Notes under the pieces: generated by a model
Told to the model about the DNA's origin: nothing
The model's input: the letters and a program-made list of their open reading frames with translations, nothing else
The model's database searches: none
Assembly: GCA_001599975.1 (NCBI GenBank)
Contig: BCIO01000005.1
Coordinates: forward strand, 2,776,508-2,840,507
DNA length: 64,000 nucleotides
Origin: Cystobasidiopsis lactophilus
Taxonomy: Eukaryota > Basidiomycota > Agaricostilbomycetes > Agaricostilbales > Chionosphaeraceae
Direction of reading: 5' to 3'
Shown: positions 22,014-59,567 of the stretch, piece by piece
Position numbering within the stretch: position 1 is the stretch's first letter
Layout of the letters: the number at the start of each line of letters is the position of its first letter
Translations under genes and position numbers: made by a program

Positions 22014-23232
22014 ATGAATGCCACGTTGAATCGTACCAAACGACCTGTCCGCACTGGTCTCTCGCTGTCTACCATGACCTCCCAATGCGACATTTGCTTT
22101 GACAAGAAGACCTGCAAAGTCCTAAACTTGCATGGCTTTTGCGTACGCTCTGCACACGAAAGGTCCTGTTGCTTGACGGAATGAGATTGACTTTCAGCGA
22201 ATGCCACCGACTTGCGACGATTGCTTTGGCAGAATGGCTAAGAGGTATCTGGACCTCCACCCTTTCACCGTCAAGATCGGCTGCCCGCGATATGGCTGCA
22301 ACGAAGGTCTGTCTCGTATCTATCCTTCTTGCATGCTAGCCCATGAATTTGGAAGTCCAGTGCTGGACTGGGACCAAATCTCCAACATCTGCAGCACCAA
22401 AACGCGCACTGAGCACGCTTCCTCGCCTCAGTGAGGCGATCCAGGCTCATTGTGTAGGCGAGCAGAATTGACAGGCTCGTTGCCCGCCGAGCCGTAGAGC
22501 TGGACCCAAATTTCAGATGGTGCTCTGGCGAGAAGTGTTCCTCGGGCCAGATCCATGTCGGAGGCGAAAAGTCACCCATCATGACCTGCTCCGACTGTGG
22601 CCAGAAGACATGCTTTCGACATCGAGGGCCGTGGCACTCGGATCTCTCTTGCGCTGAGTTCGAAGCGAAGACCCCGGCAGAGTCAGAGGACGGTAGATGT
22701 CTCGCTTATTCGAATTTACCCGAACCCTGAAGTTGCCTGGAGTGACCAGAAAAGAAGGCTCTCGCCGCGCTGGAACGTCTCTTGCGAGATGAGACCAAGC
22801 AGTGCTCCAAGTGCCGCTTCCACATTCAAAAGTCAGCCTTTCTCCCGGACTTCTTTCCATCTTATTGCTGAAAGTCTATCTGTAGAGCTTCAGGTACGTG
22901 ACCCTGACGTTGAAGGAGTCATGGGGCTGAGGCAAAAAGCAGGCTGCGGTAAGAGCCGTGCCCCCGCACTCGCCCTCCTGTTCTCAACCCAGCAAACTAG
23001 ATCATATGGTCTGTCGTGTAGGTACAGGCCTTTGTGTTCCTGCAGAAATCATGAGCTTAAGATTGGTCTAGTGCGGCCACGCTTTCTGCTACCGGTGCAG
23101 AGCGTCCTACATCGACATTGACGTGAGCGACTCTGGCCCTTCCATTCGTTCCCAGTTTTCGGTCACCCCTTATTTCGATAACAGGCACAAGGCAATCGAG
23201 CACACGGCAGGGACTGTCCACACTATGCCTAG
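22014..23232 (+). CDS. RBR-type E3 ubiquitin ligase (copy A)
   Basis: RBR ligases take ubiquitin from an E2 onto their own RING2 cysteine before transfer. Ten exons: 22014-22142, 22198-22306, 22361-22412, 22466-22692, 22750-22831, 22886-22893, 22943-22948, 23001-23017, 23072-23122, 23185-23232 (242 aa). RING1 is CDICFDKKTC...PPTCDDCF...CPRYGC; IBR is RWCSGEKCSSGQIH...MTCSDCGQKTCFRH...WH; RING2 is CSKCRFHIQKASGCDHMVCRCGHAFCYRC, with SGC as catalytic Cys. Compared with copies B and C it lacks the intron between their 91- and 136-nt exons. Intron 3 (22413-22465) has a poor GC donor (GCACGC). An alternative start is 22074. Confidence 0.85.
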
Positions 23233-23582
23233 TCGAGCTTTGCCTTTCGCTCTCTGGATGCTGGTTTTTGTGCTGCGATTCCTCTTGCTGGGTTTTGCTT
23301 TCGCATCCTGTCTTCAAATTTAACCTGCCCATTGCAACGTCCGGTACGGATATTACACTTGAGCCGAGTAGGCTTGCCGCCAGAACAAAGTTACTCTTTG
23401 ACTCGCACCGCCAAGACCCCGCCGACCCCGCTCGCTCTTGCTCCTGTCTGATCAGCGAGCGGCACTGTTCTGAATGTCTCACTTGTTTTGCGGGTTGCGC
23501 ATCATTGCGTCTTATCTGTCAAAATTCTTGTCTGCATCTTTGCTGTCGGACTGCTCTCGGTCTGCTGTCAAGATTGTCAACA
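23233..23582. other. Intergenic spacer
   Basis: Promoter region of RBR-B. A short stretch with TGCTGTCAAGAT recurs upstream of RBR-C (about 25890), so the duplication includes upstream DNA. Confidence 0.4.
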
Positions 23583-24957
23583 ATGCTCGCCGTCTGTCGC
23601 AGCCTCCTGTCCCTGTTGACCGGTCGCAAACCAGCCGTCAAGCCAGCCGTCAAACCAGGGGTCTGCGCCAGTCCAACGGTGCCATGTGAAATTTGCTGCG
23701 AGGAGAAAAGCGGCCTTCGACCTTTGATGATTCACGAAGCCTGTGTAAGTTAAAGATGTTATTAGCTGTAACGATTTTCATCCGGACGGTGGTAGACAAT
23801 GCCGCCAACCTGTCGAAGCTGTCTGGGCCAATCTTGCAAAAGCTACCTGGAGGCCAATCCGCTCGCCACGAAAATCAAATGTCCCAACAATGGCTGTTCT
23901 GTCGGTGAGAGAACCTTGAGAAAGTGGTGCTTTTCTGCCCGGTTGACGGTAACACGACCAGCCTTGGAGTGGGTCCAGCTGTCGCGCTTCTGCGACAGAA
24001 AGACAAGAGCCGAGTAAGTGCCCCCTCATTGACTCGCTGTAGAGATAGCTTGTGATTCGTCATAGAGTCGATGCTTTGCTGGCCCGTAGAGCCTTAGAGG
24101 CATCGCCACACTTCCGGTGGTGTGCCAACAAGAAGTGCGAATCAGGCGTACTGCATGTAGGCCTTGTAGATGCACCAGTTTACCCCAAATCTTACACAAA
24201 ATACAGTCCGGCGGAAACGAAGCGCCCATCATGACTTGCCCAGAGTGCCACCAAAAGACTTGCTTTCGCCACAAAGTGATCTGGCACACCGGGATGACGT
24301 GCGAAGAATATGACATCTCCTTGCTGCCTCAAACCGATGCAGGTGAGACTGAAGTTGTCTACTCGTTGCGAAAATGATGATCATGACCGCCGTCAAAACG
24401 TAGAGAAAAAAGCCATCAAAGCTTTGGAGAAGCTCATGCTCGGTGAAGGCTCCAAGAGATGCCCGAATTGCCATTTCTACATTCAAAGGTGCGTTGGTGC
24501 TTTTCTGTTAGACGGGGTGCGCCAGTCCGACAATTCAGCCGGTTTGGGCAGGATCTCGGGTGCGTTAGTTTGCCAACGTGAAAGTGCATATCGCTGAACA
24601 CCCTGATGTCGACGTTCTCCAGGCTGCAGTAAGCGGAAACCATCGAGCTTTCTGTCAATGACTCATTGCTTCGCCTCTCTAAAGATTTCATGCTATGTCG
24701 GGTAAGCCCTACTCATGATCAGCGGGCGCAACATCGATCAAGGGCTGAGCACCAAGAGGCTGTTAGTGTGGCCACGGATTTTGCTTCGGCTGCAGGGCAT
24801 CCTGGACCCACGAGACTAGCTATGTGAGTCCATCGACTAGACTTTGGCCGTCCACTAAATGTAGGCTCGTTTAGGCGCAACACGGGGCTGGATGTCGCAG
24901 ATAGGAGACTCTTCGCGACATGCGGGTTCCTGTGTAGCTTTTCAAAGCACCCTGTAG
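23583..24957 (+). CDS. RBR-type E3 ubiquitin ligase (copy B)
   Basis: Eleven exons: 23583-23744, 23796-23904, 23962-24013, 24066-24156, 24207-24342, 24404-24488, 24552-24559, 24623-24628, 24685-24701, 24767-24823, 24901-24957 (259 aa). RING1 CEICCEEKSG...PPTCRSC...CPNNGC; IBR RWCANKKCESG...MTCPECHQKTCFRH; RING2 CPNCHFYIQRISGCNFMLCRCGHGFCFGC. The N-terminus carries a short KPAVKPAVKPGV repeat absent from A and C. The last exon keeps the 57-nt length of copy C but has lost the CPYA signature (it reads RHAGSCVAF), so the RING2 end may be degraded. Expression is unproven. Confidence 0.75.
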
Positions 24958-25028
24958 TTCCGTTGGTCCTTGAACAGACTCCAGGTTTTGTGTCTTCTTC
25001 GTGCGCCGGCGCCACCACCGCGATTTCG

Positions 25029-25597
25029 ATGAGCCCTTCACTTTACCCTGAGCTTCCGCCTTTTGTAGAGGTCAAATCGACCCCAAAAAAAGGACAAGGC
25101 CTCTTCAGCTCAGTAGAGGTGTCGGAGAGCATGCTTTTGCGGACTCCGAAGCAACGCCTCGTCTGAACATCCTCAACCTGAACAGCTTGTTGGCCTTTTG
25201 CACATCGCGTGGACCGGCCTTCGAAGCGTTTTCCGAACGACAAGCTGGTCTGTTATTGTGTGACTCTGGCTCCGTACCAGCGTGGTGGACATTAACCGGA
25301 GGAGCGCACAACTTGAAGCTGCAATGCCTCCGGCCTTGAAGTTGAAGAAATGAGCGCTAGCCCCGGGACAGGCATGGAGCTCGCTGCCTCAAATACACTG
25401 TCAGCTAAGGCCTTGGAGTGCCACAGTAACCTGGAACCGAACAGCCAAATCAGCGGGTCGGAAGGACACCGCAGCTTCGGTCTAGCAGCGTTGTTGCCTC
25501 CCACTCTCATCCCCTCCAAGAGAACGAAACGTTGACACAAACGCAGTCGCTTTACTCTTCTCAGCTGGCGGTCGAAGTGGCAAAGTTCACGGGCGAC
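25029..25597 (+). pseudogene. SET/MYND methyltransferase relic
   Basis: The first 30 or so codons (MSPSLYPELPPFVEVKS, then GLFSSV) match the intact gene at 27358 closely, but the frame is broken soon after and the MYND cysteines are not kept in frame. Further stretches remain alignable (LNSLLAFCTS, and a late segment corresponding to LTQEQLLYFAQLAIELA of the intact copy, near 25540-25597). The rest, including the SET core, is absent. It sits downstream of RBR-B exactly as the intact gene sits downstream of RBR-C. Confidence 0.8.
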
Positions 25598-26004
25598 CTT
25601 CAATCGCTCAGTGGGAACAGCAACTCGGCATTTGTCTCCCTCTCCGAGTCTCCATCTTGGCTTTAACCCGGGCCTTCCCTCTTTTGCTTTCACAAAGTTG
25701 ATTCTGATCCAAGCTGGAGACAAGTTGCGTACTCGCGGACGAAGCCACCATTTCTCTCGCGCTCTGGAAGAGGTTTTGTTTCTACTCTTTCTTTATCAGT
25801 GTCCACTCGACGCTGTTTATCAACTCTTTGGTGCTGTCTTCAATGGCGTCTAGTTGTCAAGCCGATCTGGATTCCTTGCTGTCACACTGCTGTCAAGATC
25901 TTCCCTGTCTTGTCGGCCATGTGTTTCTATCTTGCCGCCCTGCGGAATCGTATAGCCTGTCAATTTTCTATCAGGAGTCTTTACCTGTCTCCACCAGTCG
26001 AACC
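25598..26004. other. Spacer upstream of RBR-C
   Basis: Contains short similarity to the region upstream of RBR-B. An open frame continuous with RBR-C exon 1 starts at 25828, so a longer N-terminus is possible but not favoured. Confidence 0.35.
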
Positions 26005-27236
26005 ATGCCTTGTTGTGGAATCTGCTGCGAGGAGCAGAGCGGCCTCAAACCTTTTGTACTGCACGGAGTCTGTGTGAGCTATACCCGCCTATCGACTAGG
26101 ACTGCTCTCATCTGGTTGGGTGTTGTAAGAAAATGCCTCCAACTTGTCAAAGCTGTCTGGGCCTGTCGGCCAAAAGCTACCTCGAGGCTAACCCGCTCGC
26201 CACGAAAGTCAAATGTCTCAAGAATGGCTGCTCTACTGGTGAACTTGATCAAGTCGAACGCATTTAGTCAGCTAACAGTCATACGCTTAGCCTTGGAGTG
26301 GGTGCAGATGTCGCGCTTCTGCGATAGAAAGACAAGAGCCGAGTATGTACCATCCTCGTTGGGCTCGCTACAAAATTGGCTGACTTTGCTTCAGAGTGGA
26401 TGCTTTGCTTGCCCGCCGAGCTCTCGAAGCCTCGCCAGACTTTCGCTGGTGCGCCAACGAGAAGTGCAAGTCAGGAATTTTGCATGTAGGCCGGCCCTTC
26501 GTCGAGGAACCATCGTACGAAATCTTATTCCAGTCTCAAGTCTGGAGGGGAAGACGCACCTATCATAACTTGTCCAGAATGCCAGCACAAGACTTGCTTT
26601 CGGCACAAAGTACCATGGCACGAGCATCTGTCGTGCGAAGAATACGACATCTCCATGCTGCCTAAAACCGATGCAGGTGAGCTCGAAGCTCCAAAGTGCT
26701 GCTCCGATTTAACTTGGTGACTGCAGAAAGAGCAGCCATCAAAGCTCTGGAAAAGTTGTGTCTCGATGAAGTCGTCAAAAAATGTCCCAAATGCGATTAT
26801 CACATCCAAAAGTTAGTTCGTATCCTTGACGTCCAACCGTAAGGGAGTTCATACCCTTTGAGCAGAATTTCAGGTGCGAGTGTCGAAGAGGACATTCCAC
26901 TCGAAACCTACCTAACTTCGCCAACCTGCCTTGACTCTGCAGGTTGTGGTAGGCTGAATCTAGACCATGTTTGACCTGCTCTCACTGTGAGAGAGAAGAC
27001 TTCATGACATGTCGGGTAAGGCCCGTTTGATGGATACTGCCAAACCGCACTGGTTAATAATCCACTTGCAGTGTGGACATGGCTTTTGCTTTGTTTGCCG
27101 CGCATCTTGTGCCCACGATTATCTTTTTGTGAGCGAAGAGCTTCAGCATTGAGCAGTCGTGCTCATGCTGGAATCTCAGGAAGGCCACACCGGATTCCAA
27201 GGTCACGAACAGTCTTGTCCCTACGCACGAAGATGA
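26005..27236 (+). CDS. RBR-type E3 ubiquitin ligase (copy C)
   Basis: Eleven exons: 26005-26073, 26130-26238, 26291-26342, 26395-26485, 26541-26676, 26727-26811, 26866-26873, 26943-26948, 26999-27015, 27072-27128, 27180-27236 (228 aa). The start ATG gives MPCCGICCEEQSGLKPF. RING1, IBR (RWCANEKCKSG...ITCPECQHKTCFRH) and RING2 (CPKCDYHIQKISGCDFMTCRCGHGFCFVC) are complete and the end GHEQSCPYARR is the typical RBR finish. Exons 7, 8 and 9 are 8, 6 and 17 nt; exon 8 (GTTGTG) holds the catalytic Cys codon. This is the best-preserved copy. Confidence 0.87.
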
Positions 27237-27357
27237 TTTCTTTCGTGAACCTGTCCCTGCGAAAAGCCTTTCTGGAATGCCGTTACCTCGTATAATGGAC
27301 TTGGAAGTCTCGCACTTGCGCATTTGCATTCTGAGTCTGCCGCCACCACCGTTTTCA

Positions 27358-29169
27358 ATGAGCCCCTCACTTTATCCTGAGCTTTCGCCTTTTGTGGAGG
27401 TTAAATCGAACTCAAAGAAAGGACGAGGCCTCTTCAGCTCAGTGGACGTTTCGAAGGGCACTACTCTAGTGGAGGCAACGCCCCATCTGAGCATCCTCGA
27501 CCTGAACAACCTGTTGGCCTTTTGCACGTCGTGTGGCGCTTCGGACCGGCCTTTGAAGCGGTGCTCAAACTGCAAACTGGTCTCTTATTGTGCGGCTCCT
27601 GCTCCATGCCAGCGCAGGGATTGGACGGAAGAGGCGCACAAGCTGGAATGCCCAGCTTTGAAGAAGTATGCGCAAAGTCACTCCCCGGACCGACCGGGCT
27701 TGGAGTTCGCTGTGCCAAGCACACCGGTCAGGGCCTTGGCAAAGCTACTCTGGAAGCGAACGACCAAACCAGCGGATTGGTGGGAGCCCATCCGGCAGCT
27801 TCAGTCTCGTATGGCGTCCGCCTCGCACTCTAGATTTGCACCTCGCTGACAGTTCCCCAAGACAAGGAAAAGTTGACACAAGAGCAGCTGCTTTACTTTG
27901 CCCAGCTGGCGATCGAACTGGCAGACTTCATGGGCAGAGAGACTGTGACTGACCTCCAAGACCCTGGCCAGCTTTTGGACCTTTGCTGCGCAGTGAGTCC
28001 TGCCCCCGTTTCAGACTCACTACTCAGCTGAATATTAACCGCAGTTCGCCACCAATTCCTTCTCCTTGACCCTGCCCGACTTATCGAATATCGGTGCGGC
28101 CGTCTGCCCGGTAGTGGCACTCGCCAACCACAGCTGCGCTCCCAATGCCGTGGTGGTATTTCCAAAGGGGCCCAAAGTGAAAGGTGGCATGCAAATCGTG
28201 GCCATCAAGGACATCAAAGCTGGATCAGAGGTGATTGCTCTACTCCCGCCCCGTGTGTTCGGCTCAAACTTTGGGCAGATCACCACATCTTATGTCGACC
28301 TGTCAGAAAAGAGATCAATTAGGCAGAAAGAGCTGCTGGGACGGTATTATTTCACGTGTACCTGCGCTCTCTGCGAGCGGCGGAGAAAGGTTCCCGACTG
28401 GGTCGACCCGCGAGAGTCGCTCAAGTGCAGGAAACCAAAATGTCCTGGTTCGGTGGCATTTCCAGACCTTAGTCAAGCTGTGGAAGAAGAGACGGAGGCA
28501 GAGGATGAGATTGCGTTGGAATGCTCTCAGTGTCAGACGCGGTGGCAAGCGTCGAGAAAGGATCTCGCAGAGCAGATACGAGTCGGAGAAACGACCGTGC
28601 AGGCTTTGGAGAGATCTGATGGCACCAGTGAGCACTTTTCCTTTGGCCGCGTTCCCCTTTGACCCTAGCCCAAATCAACAGATCTGGCTGGCCACCTTCG
28701 TACCATCGTGCGTGCCTTCTCGGCCGACTTCAGCGACTCCTCGTCGCCGACGTTTTCCCTCCTTCGCTCGGCCCAACTGGCTTGCATCGATGCCGGCTTG
28801 TACGAGGAAGCACTGTATGTCGATTTTGGCCTTTTATCTCCACCGTCTCCTTTTACTGATGATGCTGGAACGGACAGAGGTTATGCGGAAAGAGTGACGT
28901 CCGCCATGTCTTTTCTCTACCCACCCTCGCACCCGGTGGCGATGGTCCAGTTGGTCACCTTGGCCAAGCTCATCCACAATATCGCCTTCGAAGCGGCATC
29001 ACAGTCCAGTGAAGAGGGTAGGCTGAAGCCCGAGTACGCTACCAAAGTCTTGCTGGCCAAGTCGGCCCTCGAAGCCGCCGTGCAAGGGTTGCGAATTGGT
29101 TTCGGCGAAGGTGGCGAAGTCGAGCGCGATGCGCAAGAGCTCCTCTTCACATTCCGGCAAGTGCAATGA
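27358..29169 (+). CDS. SET and MYND domain lysine methyltransferase
   Basis: Five exons: 27358-27808, 27862-27992, 28045-28230, 28279-28627, 28682-29169 (534 aa). The split SET domain begins at VEVKSNSKKGRGLFSS; the MYND zinc finger (CTSCGASDRPLKRCSNCKLVSYC...CQRRDW...HKLEC) is inserted; the SET core resumes with ANHSCAPNAVVVF and TTSYVDLSEKRSIRQKELLGRYYFTCTCALC (post-SET cysteines). The C-terminal third is helical. The intron 28231-28278 (48 nt) is in frame and is removed because the family motif runs GSE|ITTSY. Likely substrate unknown; SMYD enzymes act on histones and other proteins. It lies 121 bp after RBR-C. Confidence 0.87.
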
Positions 29170-29459: not shown

Positions 29460-30685
29460 CTACGGCACTCGTACCGAGTGCTCGCTTTCAAAGAACTCGT
29501 CGTAGGTCGGTTCTTCGGCCTTGGACCGCGGAACGCCATTTTCAGCAGCCAGCTCTGGCAGAGCCTCGTGAGACTTGAAGCTTCTAGGCGACGGCGGTCC
29601 ATTGGTGGACGTGCCTGACGATGCGGGGCGGCTATGATAGAACTCGGGCGAAGGTGAGCGCGACGAAGTCGGTGTGGAACCTTCGTTGGAGATGATAGAA
29701 CTTGGGCGGGACGGCCGCCGGAAAACGTCTTCTTCGCCACCTCTCCCAACCGCCTTCGGTCCCGTCCCTGGTCCCATTGATAGATTCGGCGACGAGGTGG
29801 CAGACGCTGGTGCCTTTTTCCGCCGCTCCCACTCCGCTCGATACCGCTCGTAGCCATCCCGAAAGGTGTTGTCGACCCGGCTGGAGAATATGAGCTCGCC
29901 TCTTGGGTTGTTCGCTGGTGGAATGGCTTGCAGAGGCTGCCGGGAGGACGGCGACGTGGGCCGGATCTCTGACGCGGACGGCTTCTCGGGTGTGGTGGGT
30001 GATGCCGCCGCTGACGACCGCGAGGGGCGGCGCACGGGGGCGTCCCGGCGGAACCAGGAGGTCACAGCGGACGAAGTGCGCGTATTGAGATGCATATTGA
30101 GTGGGCGCAGAGACCGATTCGCCTGTGGCACGAATCTTCTCTCGCGCTTCTGTTTAGAAGCGTCCCCTATCGGCAATGAGCGAGGGAAACGCACTTGTAC
30201 GCCCGCGATATCTTTTCTGTGTACATGCCAGTGGCGAAGAAGAGGACGAGGGAGGTGACGGCGATGAGGAGGAGCGAGATGTACGAGTAGTGAACCAAGG
30301 AGTACTGGCGAGCGTGGGGTCGATTGAGCCTCCTGAATTGAACCTTGAGCGTGAAGGGGGATACTCACGATGCTAGGTGTTACGAAGACGCGGTAGGCGA
30401 GCAGGGCGATGGAAGCCACCAGGGCGGCCAAAAAGGCTGAAACCCGTCCTCTCGTCGATGAGACTGGTGCTCGCGTGAATTTTTGGAGCGGGTCGGTCCT
30501 CACCTTGGTACTTGCGCCGCTGATTATTCAGGTTCTCGGCATTCTGTAGTAACCTGCGCCCCGTCGTGATCAGTCCCGGGGCCAGCGAGCAAGAGCAGGC
30601 AAGGATAGGCGAACCGCTGCTCGAACTTTAATAAGTCGCGGTAACTGGCGCTTGTCGCTGGCGGCGCATAGGTCTTGCTGGCCAT
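29460..30685 (-). CDS. SPO7: Nem1-Spo7 phosphatase regulatory subunit
   Basis: Spo7 is the membrane partner of the phosphatase Nem1, which activates the lipin Pah1 at the nuclear/ER membrane. Five exons: 30615-30685, 30504-30553, 30369-30436, 30195-30304, 29460-30138 (325 aa). The spliced N-terminus reads SASYRDLLKFEQRLLQNAENLNNQRRKYQ, then membrane segment 1 (FLAALVASIALLAYRVFV), membrane segment 2 (YSYISLLLIAVTSLVLFFATGMYTEKI) and the conserved RFVPQANRSLRPLNMHLNTR. A long Ser/Pro-rich tail (about 190 residues) follows, longer than in yeast. The intron donor at 30614 is GTTCGC. It converges on the methyltransferase gene. Confidence 0.85.
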
Positions 30686-30820: not shown

Positions 30821-33800
30821 TCACCATAGCTGTTGATGGAGTGAGTGAGCAATAGGCAAACGGATAGAGACGAAAGACGCACAGCGCATTTGGATTTTGG
30901 GTTGTAGGTTGAGCCGACCGGGCAGGAGAAGGCCTTGGCGAATCCTTCGCTGTTGGATAGCGGCCCCAGAACGCGGAAGTTCGTGGGCTACGACCTGGAG
31001 TCAGTACAAGGTTCCGGATGAAGCAAAAGAAGCAGCGAACCGAATGGGGGTCAACACGGATGCGCCGGACCTAAATGGAATCTTTTGAGCGCTGAATGCG
31101 CCCCAAGAAGCCAAGAGCATCGACGTACCGCCTCAGCTGGCTTGATGCCTCTGACCCAACCTCTCGCATAGGCAATGTAGAATCTGCGGCGAGCTCAGTT
31201 GATTTGGAGAACAACGTTCTAAGAAGCGAGAGATCCCCACAGCTGCTCCCGGGTGTAGTTCAAGCCAGGCAGAAGGAAGTTGTTGTACTTGCTGCCATTT
31301 TCGTCACTCTTGAACCGGTCGTGCCAGGCAAGGAAAGCTTCTTCGATGCCTCCCGCATCAGCCGCGTCTTCGCCCACGGTGAACCGGCTCTGCACGGCGG
31401 GTCAGCTTCAGAGGTTGTAAGTAGGGCCAGACCCTTACGTTGATGTAGTACTTCTTGCCGTTGGCGTCCGTGATGTAGTACTTGGCGTACTGGTCGATCA
31501 CGCATTGTTGGCGGCGGTCAAACTCCGCCGAGGTCTCGTTGGTCCACCAGTTCGTAAGCTTGCCGTTCAGATCGTAGAGCCGACCAGCTTTGTCGAATGC
31601 GTGCTATATCATCAAGGTTGTCAATTTGATACCGGCTCAAGAGGCTGTCCAACACTCACAGTGAGTTCGTGACCCTGGAAGCAGTATGAGCTAATTGTTT
31701 GACGTTCCGAGCAAGGAAATACTAACAGCAACAGCTCCGAAAGAGCCAAAGGCAATGTATTCAGGGCTGTTGGCTGAGAAGTAAGGGGGCTGGAGAATGC
31801 CGGCCGGGAACACAATCTGCTCCATAGGCCAGGTCAGTGATGCGAGCCAGCGTTGGGTCAAAGGACTGACCTCGTTGGCGGGAGGGTTGTAGTAAGCGTT
31901 CACTTCGGAGGCGATCATGTCCCATTCGCCGGGGTCGACTTGCTTCCCAATCTTGCTCCACATGCGCTGCACCGATGCACTGAGGCCGCGGTTGACGTTT
32001 CCAAAGTGGTCCGTCTTATTAAACGGCTCTTGAGGGCGGTAGTAGTCCAGCAAGGACTCGGGGTCGGCAGTGTTGGGAGACGTAGGATAGCCGATCTTGA
32101 TGGCGATGGCTTGTGCCTGTGAGCGCTCGACAGCGTCAGCGCCAATTCACGGCAGAACATTAAAGATACAAAGAGATACCTTTTCCTCGGCGCGCTTGCG
32201 CGTGGTGGCATCAAGCCAGTCCAGCTTTGGCAAGGTGTTGGTGAAAGCCTTGATCGTGGCCTTGATGATGTCCTCGGCGAAGACCTTGGAGTCGCCCTTG
32301 AAAGCCTCTTGCACATAATATCGGCCGATCAAGAACCCGGCGTGCTCTTGGATGGAAGCGAGGCAGGTGTCCTCCCGAGGCGCACGGACGCCTTCGTCGA
32401 TGCCGCTGAGGTAGCTGTTGAGCTTGGTGACTTCCTTGCGAACGGCCTGGCCTGGGCCCAAGAGCATGCCAAAAGTAATAGACGTTTTCCAAACGAAGTA
32501 GGCTTCGAGGATGGGATCCGGCACATCCTCGACGATAGTGGAGAGGTTCGAGAAGAACGATGGGGTGGCGACGATGACCTTGTCGGGCAAGGTGGCGCCA
32601 ACAAAGGCGGTCAGGTATGTCTTGTAGTCGATGGAACTGCCCAAAAGGTCGTTCACGCCTGGCACGTCCAAGGGGTTGTAGGTGAGAATTGGGTCGTCCA
32701 AGTCAACCCTGAACAATGCGCCTTCTGAGCACCTTGACCGAAAGCCAGAAAGAAAGACACCAACACATCCCAAGCCACACCAGCAATCTTCTTCTCGAGG
32801 GTGACCACGCTCTTTGCGATCTTGGCAATGTCGGCGTCGATAGTGTCGTCATTCGAGCCCAGGTCGAGGTAGGTCTGGGTCAAAGCGCTGCGGATGACCT
32901 CTTGGTACACCTCCAACGCATCTTCGTCGAGGTAGTAGGATGGGTCAGGGAGGCCAAAGTCGGCCTGCTGCATCCACAGCATCTGCAGCTTGGGGTCCAC
33001 GCGCACGTCGCCTTGAATGAAGTTGTCCCAGAACATGCTGACGCCTGTATCAATCTTTCAGATCAACATAGAGTCTAACGTCTCGGACGCAAGAAGGCCG
33101 TACTGTGTTGATGGAGGTAAATGAGCGCGCTCGTCAACCGAGCTTTTCGAGATGGGCCGGGCTTGGGGAACGGCTTTTGCTCCGGTGGCGGCAGCTTGTC
33201 GTGGATAGGCGGCAGAGGAATCCAGTCCCAAGGCCCTTGAGGGGTCACCGGGGTTGGGCCGCGCCAAATCTCGAGCAAGGGACGGAGGATCTCGAGCAGG
33301 GGCTCAGCGCCCCGTCGGTCCAAGGCGTCCTCGTCCAAGCAGGCCTTGTAGTAGGACTTGAGGTGGCCCAAGTTGCTGTGGTCGGCCTTGGAGAAGCTCG
33401 AAGGGATGGGGTCATTGAGCAAGGCGCTGAGGATGCGCTTGTTCGAAACGCGAATGTAGTCCGCCGCGCCAAACATCCTGCTCGTGGCGAGATGAGTTTT
33501 GACTGCAAGTCAAAGTTTGGACCACGAACGGCTTGTCTTCTGGGACAGGGTTCAAGCGGAGCCATTGCCCGTTGGCGAACGAGTAGAAGTCCTCGCAGGG
33601 GTCAACGGAGGTGTCGATGGACCGCAGGATGTCGGCCGCCTCTTCCACACAAGCCGAAGTGAGGCACACCATGTCGTTCTTGGACGGCACTTTCGTAGGG
33701 ACAGGCGTGGGCTGCACGGAGATCAAGGTCGTGGTGACCGTGCTGGTCGCCGTCGGCCGCGCAGCATGGTTGGCCTTCTTTTGGCCGCCGTACAGACCAA

Positions 33801-33975
33801 AGCCCAGAGAAGCAAGTACGAGCAGGATCAAGCACACTGCTAGGAGCACCTTTTCAAGGAAGGAGAGCGGCACGGTCTCTTGGTTGAGCCAGCGCTGCCA
33901 TTTGGGAACCGCGGCTTCTTCGTCGTCGTCTTCGCGCCCGTTCAGCAGAGGGCGCGATTCTTCGTCGTTCGACAT
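30821..33975 (-). CDS. M13 (neprilysin-type) zinc metallopeptidase, type II membrane protein
   Basis: Thirteen exons: 33530-33975, 33089-33477, 32781-33044, 32180-32724, 31871-32116, 31727-31816, 31660-31674, 31439-31603, 31241-31389, 31129-31183, 31041-31070, 30883-30987, 30821-30829 (835 aa). A short cytosolic N-terminus (MSNDEESRPLL), a membrane anchor (FLEKVLLAVCLILLVLASLGFGL) and an ectodomain starting with the Cys-rich DPCEDFYSFANGQWL follow the M13 pattern. NAYYNPPANE|IVFPAGILQPP, HELT|HAFDK (zinc HExxH), GEDAADAGG (third zinc ligand region) and the C-terminal KCALW are all present. The 15-nt exon encodes GHELT, and the zinc motif is split by an intron. Extracellular peptide processing is likely. 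Confidence 0.92.
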
Positions 33976-57749: not shown

Positions 57750-59567
57750 TCATAGAGGCGCGATTGTTTGTTCCGCTTTTGATTGATTGGTGCGCAGACT
57801 GCAAGGAATCGCGACGCTTTTAGCCCGGCACTGGGTCGAGCAGGTTCCCATGCTTACCTGTAGTCATCGCCGTGCTGGGTGATATAGCGGACCTGCCAGC
57901 GAAGACGCTTGAGCGCCATCCCTATCAGTCAGACAGAAGCTTACCCATGGGAGGGCCTGGTAGCCAGACTTCTCCACGATCTTGAGGTAGCGGACCTGGA
58001 TGCCGGACACCGTGAAGTATGGGATCTCGAAGCGAACAGTGATGGGTGCTTTGGTGTCTTGGTTTTCGTCGGCCTTGACAGAGGGCAGGCCGAAGTGAGC
58101 GCGCATGAGGTACTCGCGCCCTCCACCCAGCTGCTTGATTTTCCACACGAATGCAGATTTTTCAGGGACGTAGTGGACTGTGCCGACGGAGGCCTGCGGA
58201 CAGATGGGTGAGCCTGCAACATAGGTCGCGAAAAGGGGAGAGGTGCCTACTCGGAACTTGGGCGAGTCGGCATCGTCTGGGACGGGCACAAAGATCTCGA
58301 CGTTGTTGGCAGTCGACCGCCGCTTGAACTGAGCTCGCGCCTTGACCATGTACTCCACTCTTGAGCCCTGGTGGTGTTCGATGACGGCCTCGGCCCAAAT
58401 CAGCGGCTTGACCTGGGTTGATAAGCGGTACGACATGAGCTCGAATTCGCCATCGGGAGGGATGAAGGAGATGGTGCGGTCGTTCTCGAAGCGGGACAGG
58501 CGGACGCATTGATGGAATTTGACGTCTTCCATCTCAATCGCCTTGCCCCTTGATGCTGTTGCAGTCAAAGTGCTTAATCTTGGACACTCATCGGGCGGAC
58601 ACAGTGTGAAAACAACGTACTCCGGCCGGTGGACTCGAACATGACCTTGTCGTTGAGGCCCAACCTCAGCTCCGGCATGCCCGACAAGTAGCACTTCATC
58701 TTGACTGCCCCCAAAATCTCTGAGCGAACAACGTTGCCATTGGCGTTGACGAGCAGGTTGACGGATTCGACAACGTCCAGGAAGACTTCGTTCTTGCGGT
58801 AGCGAATTCCCTCGGATCGCCAAGAAACGGCGTTGGTCACTGCCACCGGTGCTCTGACTTGTTGTATCTCTAGCTTGTGCGATTCTTGCGTGATGTATCT
58901 GCGAGCGCACGAGCATGAGCTTTGGCCGGGGGCGGAGGCACAGAACAAGGCAACGCACTCTTGGAGGATCTTGCTTTCCGTGGTCTGGACGTGGCCCCAG
59001 TCGACCATCTCGTCCAGGAGTTCGTAAATGATGACAAAGTTATCGCGAATGGATTCCTCCTCTAGCTCCTTGAAATATTCGGTGAAGACCTGTTGGTCGT
59101 CCGATTCGCCTGTCAGCGGCCTCAAAGACGTGTTATGAGGGCTGCAGGACTTGCCTGGACTAGCTTGTAGAGAAACGTGAGGATGACAGCAGCGTTAGAG
59201 TTGGATTTGGACAGGGCGAGGACTGCGTGCGAGCGGCGTGGTCAGCGCGAAGCCCCGACAGACGGCCAGCCGCGCATAGGCTGAGCAGAGGACATACGGT
59301 AGAGGTTGTTGTGCCTGATGTGCAGGAAATTGGTGCCCTGGGACGAGAAGCAGGGCGTGACAATGACATTCTCCTCCTCCATCTCCAGCATCAAGGGCAG
59401 AAACCGGTCCACTTCCGTTGTCTGGATGTCATCTCTGTAGTTCCTCTGGATCAAGACCTTGCCCTTGAGGTCGAGAACTGCGTAAATGAGGCTGAGCACA
59501 GCGTTAAGGGAGGCGAGCACGCCAATCTGTGCTCACTGGCCACCAGCGACAGCCCGATAGAGGACAT
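57750..59567 (-). CDS. APM1: AP-1 clathrin adaptor complex subunit mu
   Basis: Medium chain for cargo selection at the trans-Golgi and endosomes. Nine exons: 59537-59567, 59298-59477, 59155-59222, 58959-59089, 58617-58898, 58251-58548, 57945-58193, 57858-57892, 57750-57798 (440 aa). VAILDLKGKVLIQRNYRDDI (longin domain), FTEYFKELEEESIRDNFVIIYELLDEMVDWG, PVAVTNAVSWRSEGIRYRKNEVFLDV, KMKCYLSGMPELRLGLNDKVMFE, EDVKFHQCVRLSRFENDRTISFIPPDGEFELMSYRL and the end RYITQHGDDYSLRTN are classical. The intron 59090-59154 has a GC donor (GCAAGT). Only 100 bp separate its stop from that of the thioesterase gene. Confidence 0.95.

Follow-up and report, generated by a model that had tools for sequence, protein, structure and literature searches.

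Six-nucleotide exons holding the predicted catalytic cysteine of three tandem RBR ligase genes in Cystobasidiopsis lactophilus: probable constitutive microexons among dense introns

Within a 64,000-nucleotide (nt) stretch of Cystobasidiopsis lactophilus DNA (contig BCIO01000005.1, positions 2,776,508 to 2,840,507; hereafter the window), three neighboring genes of the RBR type, designated RBR-A, RBR-B, and RBR-C, appear to encode the catalytic cysteine of a ubiquitin ligase in an exon of only 6 nt. The question raised by this locus is whether such an exon operates as an on/off switch, as an earlier note on the same DNA had proposed while marking the proposal as inference, or is simply always included. 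Analysis of the window and of the genome to which it belongs (22.1 Mb in 8 contigs) points to the latter: very likely the microexons are used constitutively, having arisen from very dense introns, and do not act as a switch.

The three genes form a tandem array, and their models, which were spliced by hand and are supported by Pfam matches, are as follows:

22074..23232, plus strand, RBR-A gene model: 10 exons, 222 amino acids (aa)
23583..24904, plus strand, RBR-B gene model: 11 exons, 250 aa, start uncertain
26005..27236, plus strand, RBR-C gene model: 11 exons, 228 aa

In each model the reading frame is open throughout and closed by a single terminal stop. The introns measure 49-69 nt, and 28 of 29 are GT-AG; the only GC-AG intron is intron 3 of RBR-A (22413-22465), at a position where RBR-B and RBR-C both have GT. 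When compared by eye, ten intron positions are common to RBR-B and RBR-C, and RBR-A has nine of these, lacking the fourth. It is in the stretch encoding RING2 that each gene is divided into consecutive exons of 8, 6, and 17 nt, all nine of which are supported by their splice flanks, by an enumeration of exon chains, and by the ranking of those chains with a hidden Markov model (HMM), with an alignment to human ARIH1 as additional support for the 6-nt exons of RBR-A and RBR-B:

22886..22893, plus strand, RBR-A 8-nt exon, AGCTTCAG
22943..22948, plus strand, RBR-A 6-nt exon, GCTGCG, which completes the Gly codon and holds the catalytic Cys codon
23001..23017, plus strand, RBR-A 17-nt exon
24552..24559, plus strand, RBR-B 8-nt exon, GATCTCGG
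24623..24628, plus strand, RBR-B 6-nt exon, GCTGCA, with the catalytic Cys codon
24685..24701, plus strand, RBR-B 17-nt exon
26866..26873, plus strand, RBR-C 8-nt exon, AATTTCAG
26943..26948, plus strand, RBR-C 6-nt exon, GTTGTG, with the catalytic Cys codon
26999..27015, plus strand, RBR-C 17-nt exon; a 26-nt form ending at 27024 is also in frame

An AG precedes and a GT follows every one of these exons in all three genes, their lengths fall within the 3-30 nt that define a microexon, and the 12 introns touching them span the same 49-69 nt. Once joined, the 8, 6, and 17 nt encode KASGCDHMVCR in RBR-A, RISGCNFMLCR in RBR-B, and KISGCDFMTCR in RBR-C, and across these 11 codons third positions account for 6 of 13 changes between A and B, 6 of 12 between A and C, and 6 of 10 between B and C. 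Because the three copies derive from one duplicated gene, their equal exon sizes represent a single inherited event, held fixed by the conserved protein. Recursive splicing via the 8-nt exon was also considered and dropped, as the exon ends in TTCAG before the GT in RBR-A and RBR-C but in TCGG in RBR-B.

To what extent the sequence dictates this anatomy was assessed by enumerating GT-AG chains between fixed outer splice sites, allowing introns of 40-90 nt and no more than four inner exons. The RING2 pattern was given by one of 770 chains in RBR-A, one of 154 in RBR-B, and two of 633 in RBR-C, and all four of these chains use the 8- and 6-nt exons. The pattern never appeared in 1000 dinucleotide shuffles of each gene, with the outer exons, the source of its first half, retained in the shuffles in a manner that favors the null. 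Since the RING2 pattern was drawn from family knowledge, the chain test was repeated with an HMM, for which seven RING2 segments were taken from outside the window: five belong to proteins recovered by search and the remaining two to further genes of this genome. On this scale the 8-6-17 chain ranked first among 136 open in-frame chains in RBR-A, 25 in RBR-B, and 87 in RBR-C, scoring 43.4, 25.9, and 42.1 bits, respectively, as compared to 38.2, 13.5, and 39.0 bits for the runners-up, which merely add residues at the same exons. In every one of the genes, 8-6-17 outscores all other enumerated GT-AG chains as a RING2. A pattern search of the whole genome for an uninterrupted stretch of the Q-[KNQR..]-x-S-G-C type yielded 15 forward and 14 reverse matches, versus 11 and 15 in a reversed control, and hence no excess.

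The products are recognizable members of the RBR family. The Pfam IBR model (PF01485) matches all three, at 72.2 (A), 79.2 (B), and 73.2 (C) bits against a cut-off of 24.3, and the IBR_1 model (PF22191) matches RBR-A and RBR-B above its cut-off, at 34.3 and 27.9 bits. Both the ARIH1 alignment and the HMM ranking reveal a RING2 with its Cys in G-C-[DN]-x-M-x-C. Specifically, when RBR-B is compared by phmmer to human ARIH1 (HHARI), the Gly-Cys of the 6-nt exon aligns to the Gly-Cys of EKDGGCNHMVCR, the cysteine of which we take to be number 357. Cys357 of HHARI is catalytic, and its replacement by Ser abolishes activity in the assays cited (PMC5548887). Similarly to ARIH1 and to three other RBR genes of this genome (L002, L003, and L006), RBR-A, -B, and -C combine an IBR domain with a RING2 in which Gly-Cys precedes [DNSY]-x-M-x-C. 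A protein search with RBR-C returned one relative and a search with a four-row alignment returned 11, of which four are named and all four belong to Venturia or Mollisia; the relatives P0004 and P0007 carry NGGCDHMTC in their protein sequences. These comparisons mark RBR-A, -B, and -C as predicted E3 ubiquitin ligases of the RBR type, paralogous to one another, that would act through a Cys-ubiquitin thioester. Much of what the earlier note described is thereby upheld: its coordinates and sizes for the nine exons, with their AG and GT flanks and introns of 49-69 nt, are all exact, the microexons are demanded by the open frames, the chain enumeration, and the HMM ranking, the RBR assignment is borne out by IBR scores above the Pfam cut-off in all three proteins and by the RING2 ranking, and the placement of the catalytic Cys in the 6-nt exon is supported by the ARIH1 alignment.

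How such exons came to be, and how they are joined, may be pictured as follows. In a common ancestor, closely spaced introns would have divided the RING2-coding stretch into exons of 8, 6, and 17 nt. This layout would then have passed to the copies, with selection on the protein holding exon lengths constant as introns and silent sites diverged, a history to which the present pattern conforms. Introns of approximately 50 nt are probably recognized as units, that is, by intron definition, and the tiny exons would be joined constitutively, intron by intron, to give an active ligase that forms the Cys-ubiquitin thioester. Skipping of the 6-nt exon would amount to rare noise, producing in silico a full-length but catalytically dead protein, and other skips would shift the frame. 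Intron definition agrees well with introns that are short, vary little in length, and have good 5' sites. Taken overall, the splice sites beside the microexons are no weaker than the rest: the median 5' splice-site score is 6.88 at exons shorter than 20 nt versus 5.27 at the others (p 0.026) and the median 3' score is 4.33 versus 3.73 (p 0.20), p-values that are optimistic given that homologous introns were counted separately, in a comparison of 15 versus 26 introns from only four genes.

The small size of that sample and the optimism of its p-values count against this explanation, as do several further points. Firstly, inclusion of the microexons is itself predicted from genomic sequence. Secondly, individual 3' sites beside microexons score low (1.1 at intron 7 of RBR-A and -0.3 at intron 9 of RBR-B), and the AAGCAG before the RBR-A 6-nt exon (22940-22948) is a NAGNAG-like acceptor at which some splice variation is possible, use of its upstream AG giving a 9-nt exon with one added residue and the second-best chain. 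Thirdly, the protein assignment has irregularities: the IBR_1 score of RBR-C, 23.1 bits, lies below the cut-off of 27, no Pfam RING model matched the RING1 of RBR-A, -B, or -C, and the C-x-H pair is absent from it. In the RING1 stretches (A 22074-22230, B 23680-23830, C 26005-26160) the Cys pairs are present, with H-x2-C at the exon 1/2 junction where the relative P0003 has C-x-H, pointing either to an unusual zinc ligand set or to a further splicing detail; the phmmer match to ARIH1 includes the later part of RING1.

The attraction of a switch lies in what missplicing would do. Of the three microexons only the 6-nt exon is frame-neutral, and in silico its omission alone keeps the frame in all three genes, giving proteins of 220 (A), 248 (B), and 226 (C) aa without Gly-Cys, while the other six skip combinations cause a frameshift in every gene. 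The earlier note's statement that this skip removes Gly-Cys in frame holds for all three genes, with the correction that in RBR-B S-G-C-N becomes S-D, so that Asn is also changed to Asp. In RBR-C, loss of Gly-Cys lowers the IBR_1 score, already under the cut-off for the full protein, to 15.1 bits, with the best stretch outside RING2. Retention of single introns around the microexons breaks the frame or meets a stop in 10 of 12 cases, those staying open being intron 6 of RBR-B and intron 7 of RBR-C. A regulated, conditional skip of the 6-nt exon could accordingly yield a full-length, Cys-less, dominant-negative protein that still binds E2 or substrate.

Such a reading can draw on analogies from other systems. 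In plant acid invertases of family GH32, a 9-bp mini-exon encoding the DPN of NDPNG holds the nucleophile Asp, and an enzyme lacking it is presumed inactive (PMC4477480; PMC4579127); cold-induced exon skipping has been described for potato invertase (as cited in PMC8483784). The RBR genes resemble this system in placing a catalytic residue within a tiny in-frame exon, and differ from it in enzyme, kingdom, and exon length (6 nt rather than 9), and in that skipping is reported in GH32 but only possible in RBR. In the potato case the skipped exon is reportedly the mini-exon. Within the fungi, the Trichoderma virens transcription factor Xlr2 contains a 20-nt microexon encoding a key Cys of a zinc domain, which was missed by gene callers, has canonical splice sites and third-position changes, and is reported from RNA sequencing to be glucose-regulated (PMC11121469). 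RBR-A, -B, and -C share with Xlr2 the key Cys of a zinc domain, canonical sites, and third-position changes, although their microexons are shorter, belong to a putative ligase, and are predicted from genomic sequence. Human TAF1 includes a regulated 6-nt neuronal exon (PMC9125161). Closest in setting are the P450 genes of the basidiomycete Phanerochaete chrysosporium, which likewise have exons down to 6 bp, introns of 45-55 bp, and tandem copies (PMC1184071); they represent another gene family, and the available text of that report does not state whether their microexons hold catalytic residues. Tiny exons with a catalytic residue and basidiomycete 6-bp exons are thus, as far as these sources go, already known. 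No report of the RBR case was found in one open-licence library of papers, where searches returned no paper joining RBR, catalytic cysteine, and microexon, none on microexons in a fungal ubiquitin ligase judging by title, none matching four of five terms for a microexon with a catalytic residue, and none matching three of five terms for microexons in Microbotryomycetes.

Against the switch stand comparisons with other genes of the same genome, a small and non-random sample of RBR genes or neighbors, read by hand in full in the first case and over the RING2 stretch in the others. The first is a gene for an M13-type metallopeptidase, which starts 3.6 kb past RBR-C, beyond SMYD and Spo7-like genes, and serves as a control for active-site microexons:

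30821..33975, minus strand, M13-type metallopeptidase gene: 13 exons, 830 aa
31660..31674, minus strand, M13 15-nt exon encoding GHELT of the zinc motif HELTH; frame-neutral

Its closest relatives in the PDB are endothelin-converting enzyme 1 and neprilysin; named close relatives from Phenoliferia, Microbotryomycetes sp. NB124-2, Sporobolomyces, and Rhodosporidiobolus, all of them Microbotryomycetes, share 45-47% identity, and a jgi protein matches at 58% over 76%; by this one protein the genome would probably be placed among basidiomycetes in or close to that class. HExxH occupies the same place in 17 of 18 relatives found, including all 8 of the closest, and is absent in P0020. Skipping of the 15-nt exon would be in frame and would lose zinc-binding residues; the gene also has an exon of 30 nt and a last exon of 9 nt. 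Among the other RBR genes, the catalytic-type Cys of L003 (L003:1946-2070) lies within a 40-nt exon, after which comes a 24-nt RING2 exon; in L002 the exon that carries this Cys is long and precedes one of 37 nt, and in L006 the Cys falls in an unbroken stretch. We take L003 to be RNF14-like and L002 to be Ariadne-like. Their RING2 intron positions coincide by eye with none of those in RBR-A, -B, or -C and look like separate insertions. The similar anatomy at the unrelated M13 active site points to a general cause, namely intron density. Dense introns would suffice by themselves: wherever they cluster within a conserved domain, some of its conserved residues end up in tiny exons, and these are noticed because the motif is known.

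Set against these observations, the proposal that the 6-nt exon is a regulated switch is very unlikely. That only its omission keeps the frame in all three genes is less telling than it seems, as a frame-neutral length is expected by chance in one exon of three and the exon sizes are set by the protein. The splice sites show no overall weakness, the M13 active site shares the anatomy, and skipping appears rare in another basidiomycete, Schizophyllum commune, where it is reported to make up 1% of coding-region splicing events of annotated transcripts, with 1,527 coding-region skips at the level of junctions (PMC5034255). The earlier note's switch therefore finds no support here. A broader version, in which active-site microexons (6 nt for the RBR Cys, 15 nt for M13 GHELT) recur in an intron-dense lineage, some of them as off-switches, and three tandem ligases share one splicing-controlled switch, is likewise most doubtful.

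It might instead be argued that the loci are decaying or silent copies whose exon structure is a relic without transcripts, given that they are tandem duplicates adjoining a truncated SMYD copy, that RBR-A has a GC-AG intron, and that RING1 is unusual. RBR-B and RBR-C are indeed copies of one RBR plus SMYD unit, with 25010-25594 matching 27341-27935; the SMYD beside RBR-C retains MYND and SET matches, while that beside RBR-B is truncated, interrupted by stops, and frameshifted by many gaps of lengths not divisible by three. The retention of RBR-B next to a decayed SMYD speaks for use of the RBR frame together with its microexons. Nonsynonymous (dN) and synonymous (dS) divergence between RBR-B and RBR-C, 0.18 and 0.90 over 218 codons, give a dN/dS of 0.197 (bootstrap 0.12-0.30), which shows purifying selection on this pair as judged from the coding sequences; RBR-A is saturated at silent sites against both, and no ratio is given for it. 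By a crude global alignment, introns of RBR-B and RBR-C are 53-60% identical, exons 2-6 are 72-94% identical, exons 7-11 are 62, 50, 82, 69, and 42% identical, and exon 1, in which the starts differ, is 34% identical. With three open frames each ended by one stop, and with 20 of 20 RBR-B and RBR-C introns still GT-AG although the introns have diverged to this degree, decay or silence of the loci is highly improbable. Finally, it is extremely unlikely that another splicing of the same stretch, such as a single larger exon, is the real one, since for all the other open in-frame chains among those counted above, none has a better RING2 score in any of the three genes.

Elsewhere in the window, Pfam searches of 20 open frames gave names to only a few neighbors. 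On the minus strand, open frames at 29460-30527 and 57864-59039 match a Spo7-like protein and an adaptor-complex medium subunit, respectively. Neither Rfam, at its gathering threshold, nor ARAGORN found a match anywhere in the window.

RBR-A, -B, and -C provide a clean setting in which to study the joining, by a spliceosome, of a 6-nt exon flanked by introns of approximately 50 nt. They also hold a caution for annotation, in that a gene caller omitting the 6 nt would produce a plausible, full-length, in-frame RBR protein that lacks only its catalytic residue, and apparent pseudo-ligases in such genomes may consequently be annotation errors. That gene callers can stumble at RING2 is suggested by two annotated Venturia inaequalis proteins, P0001 and P0002, which are 96% identical over 72% of the query: P0002 has a RING2 while P0001 ends without one, in what looks like a gene-model error. 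Were the skip nevertheless shown to be regulated, it would switch an enzyme with very great economy.

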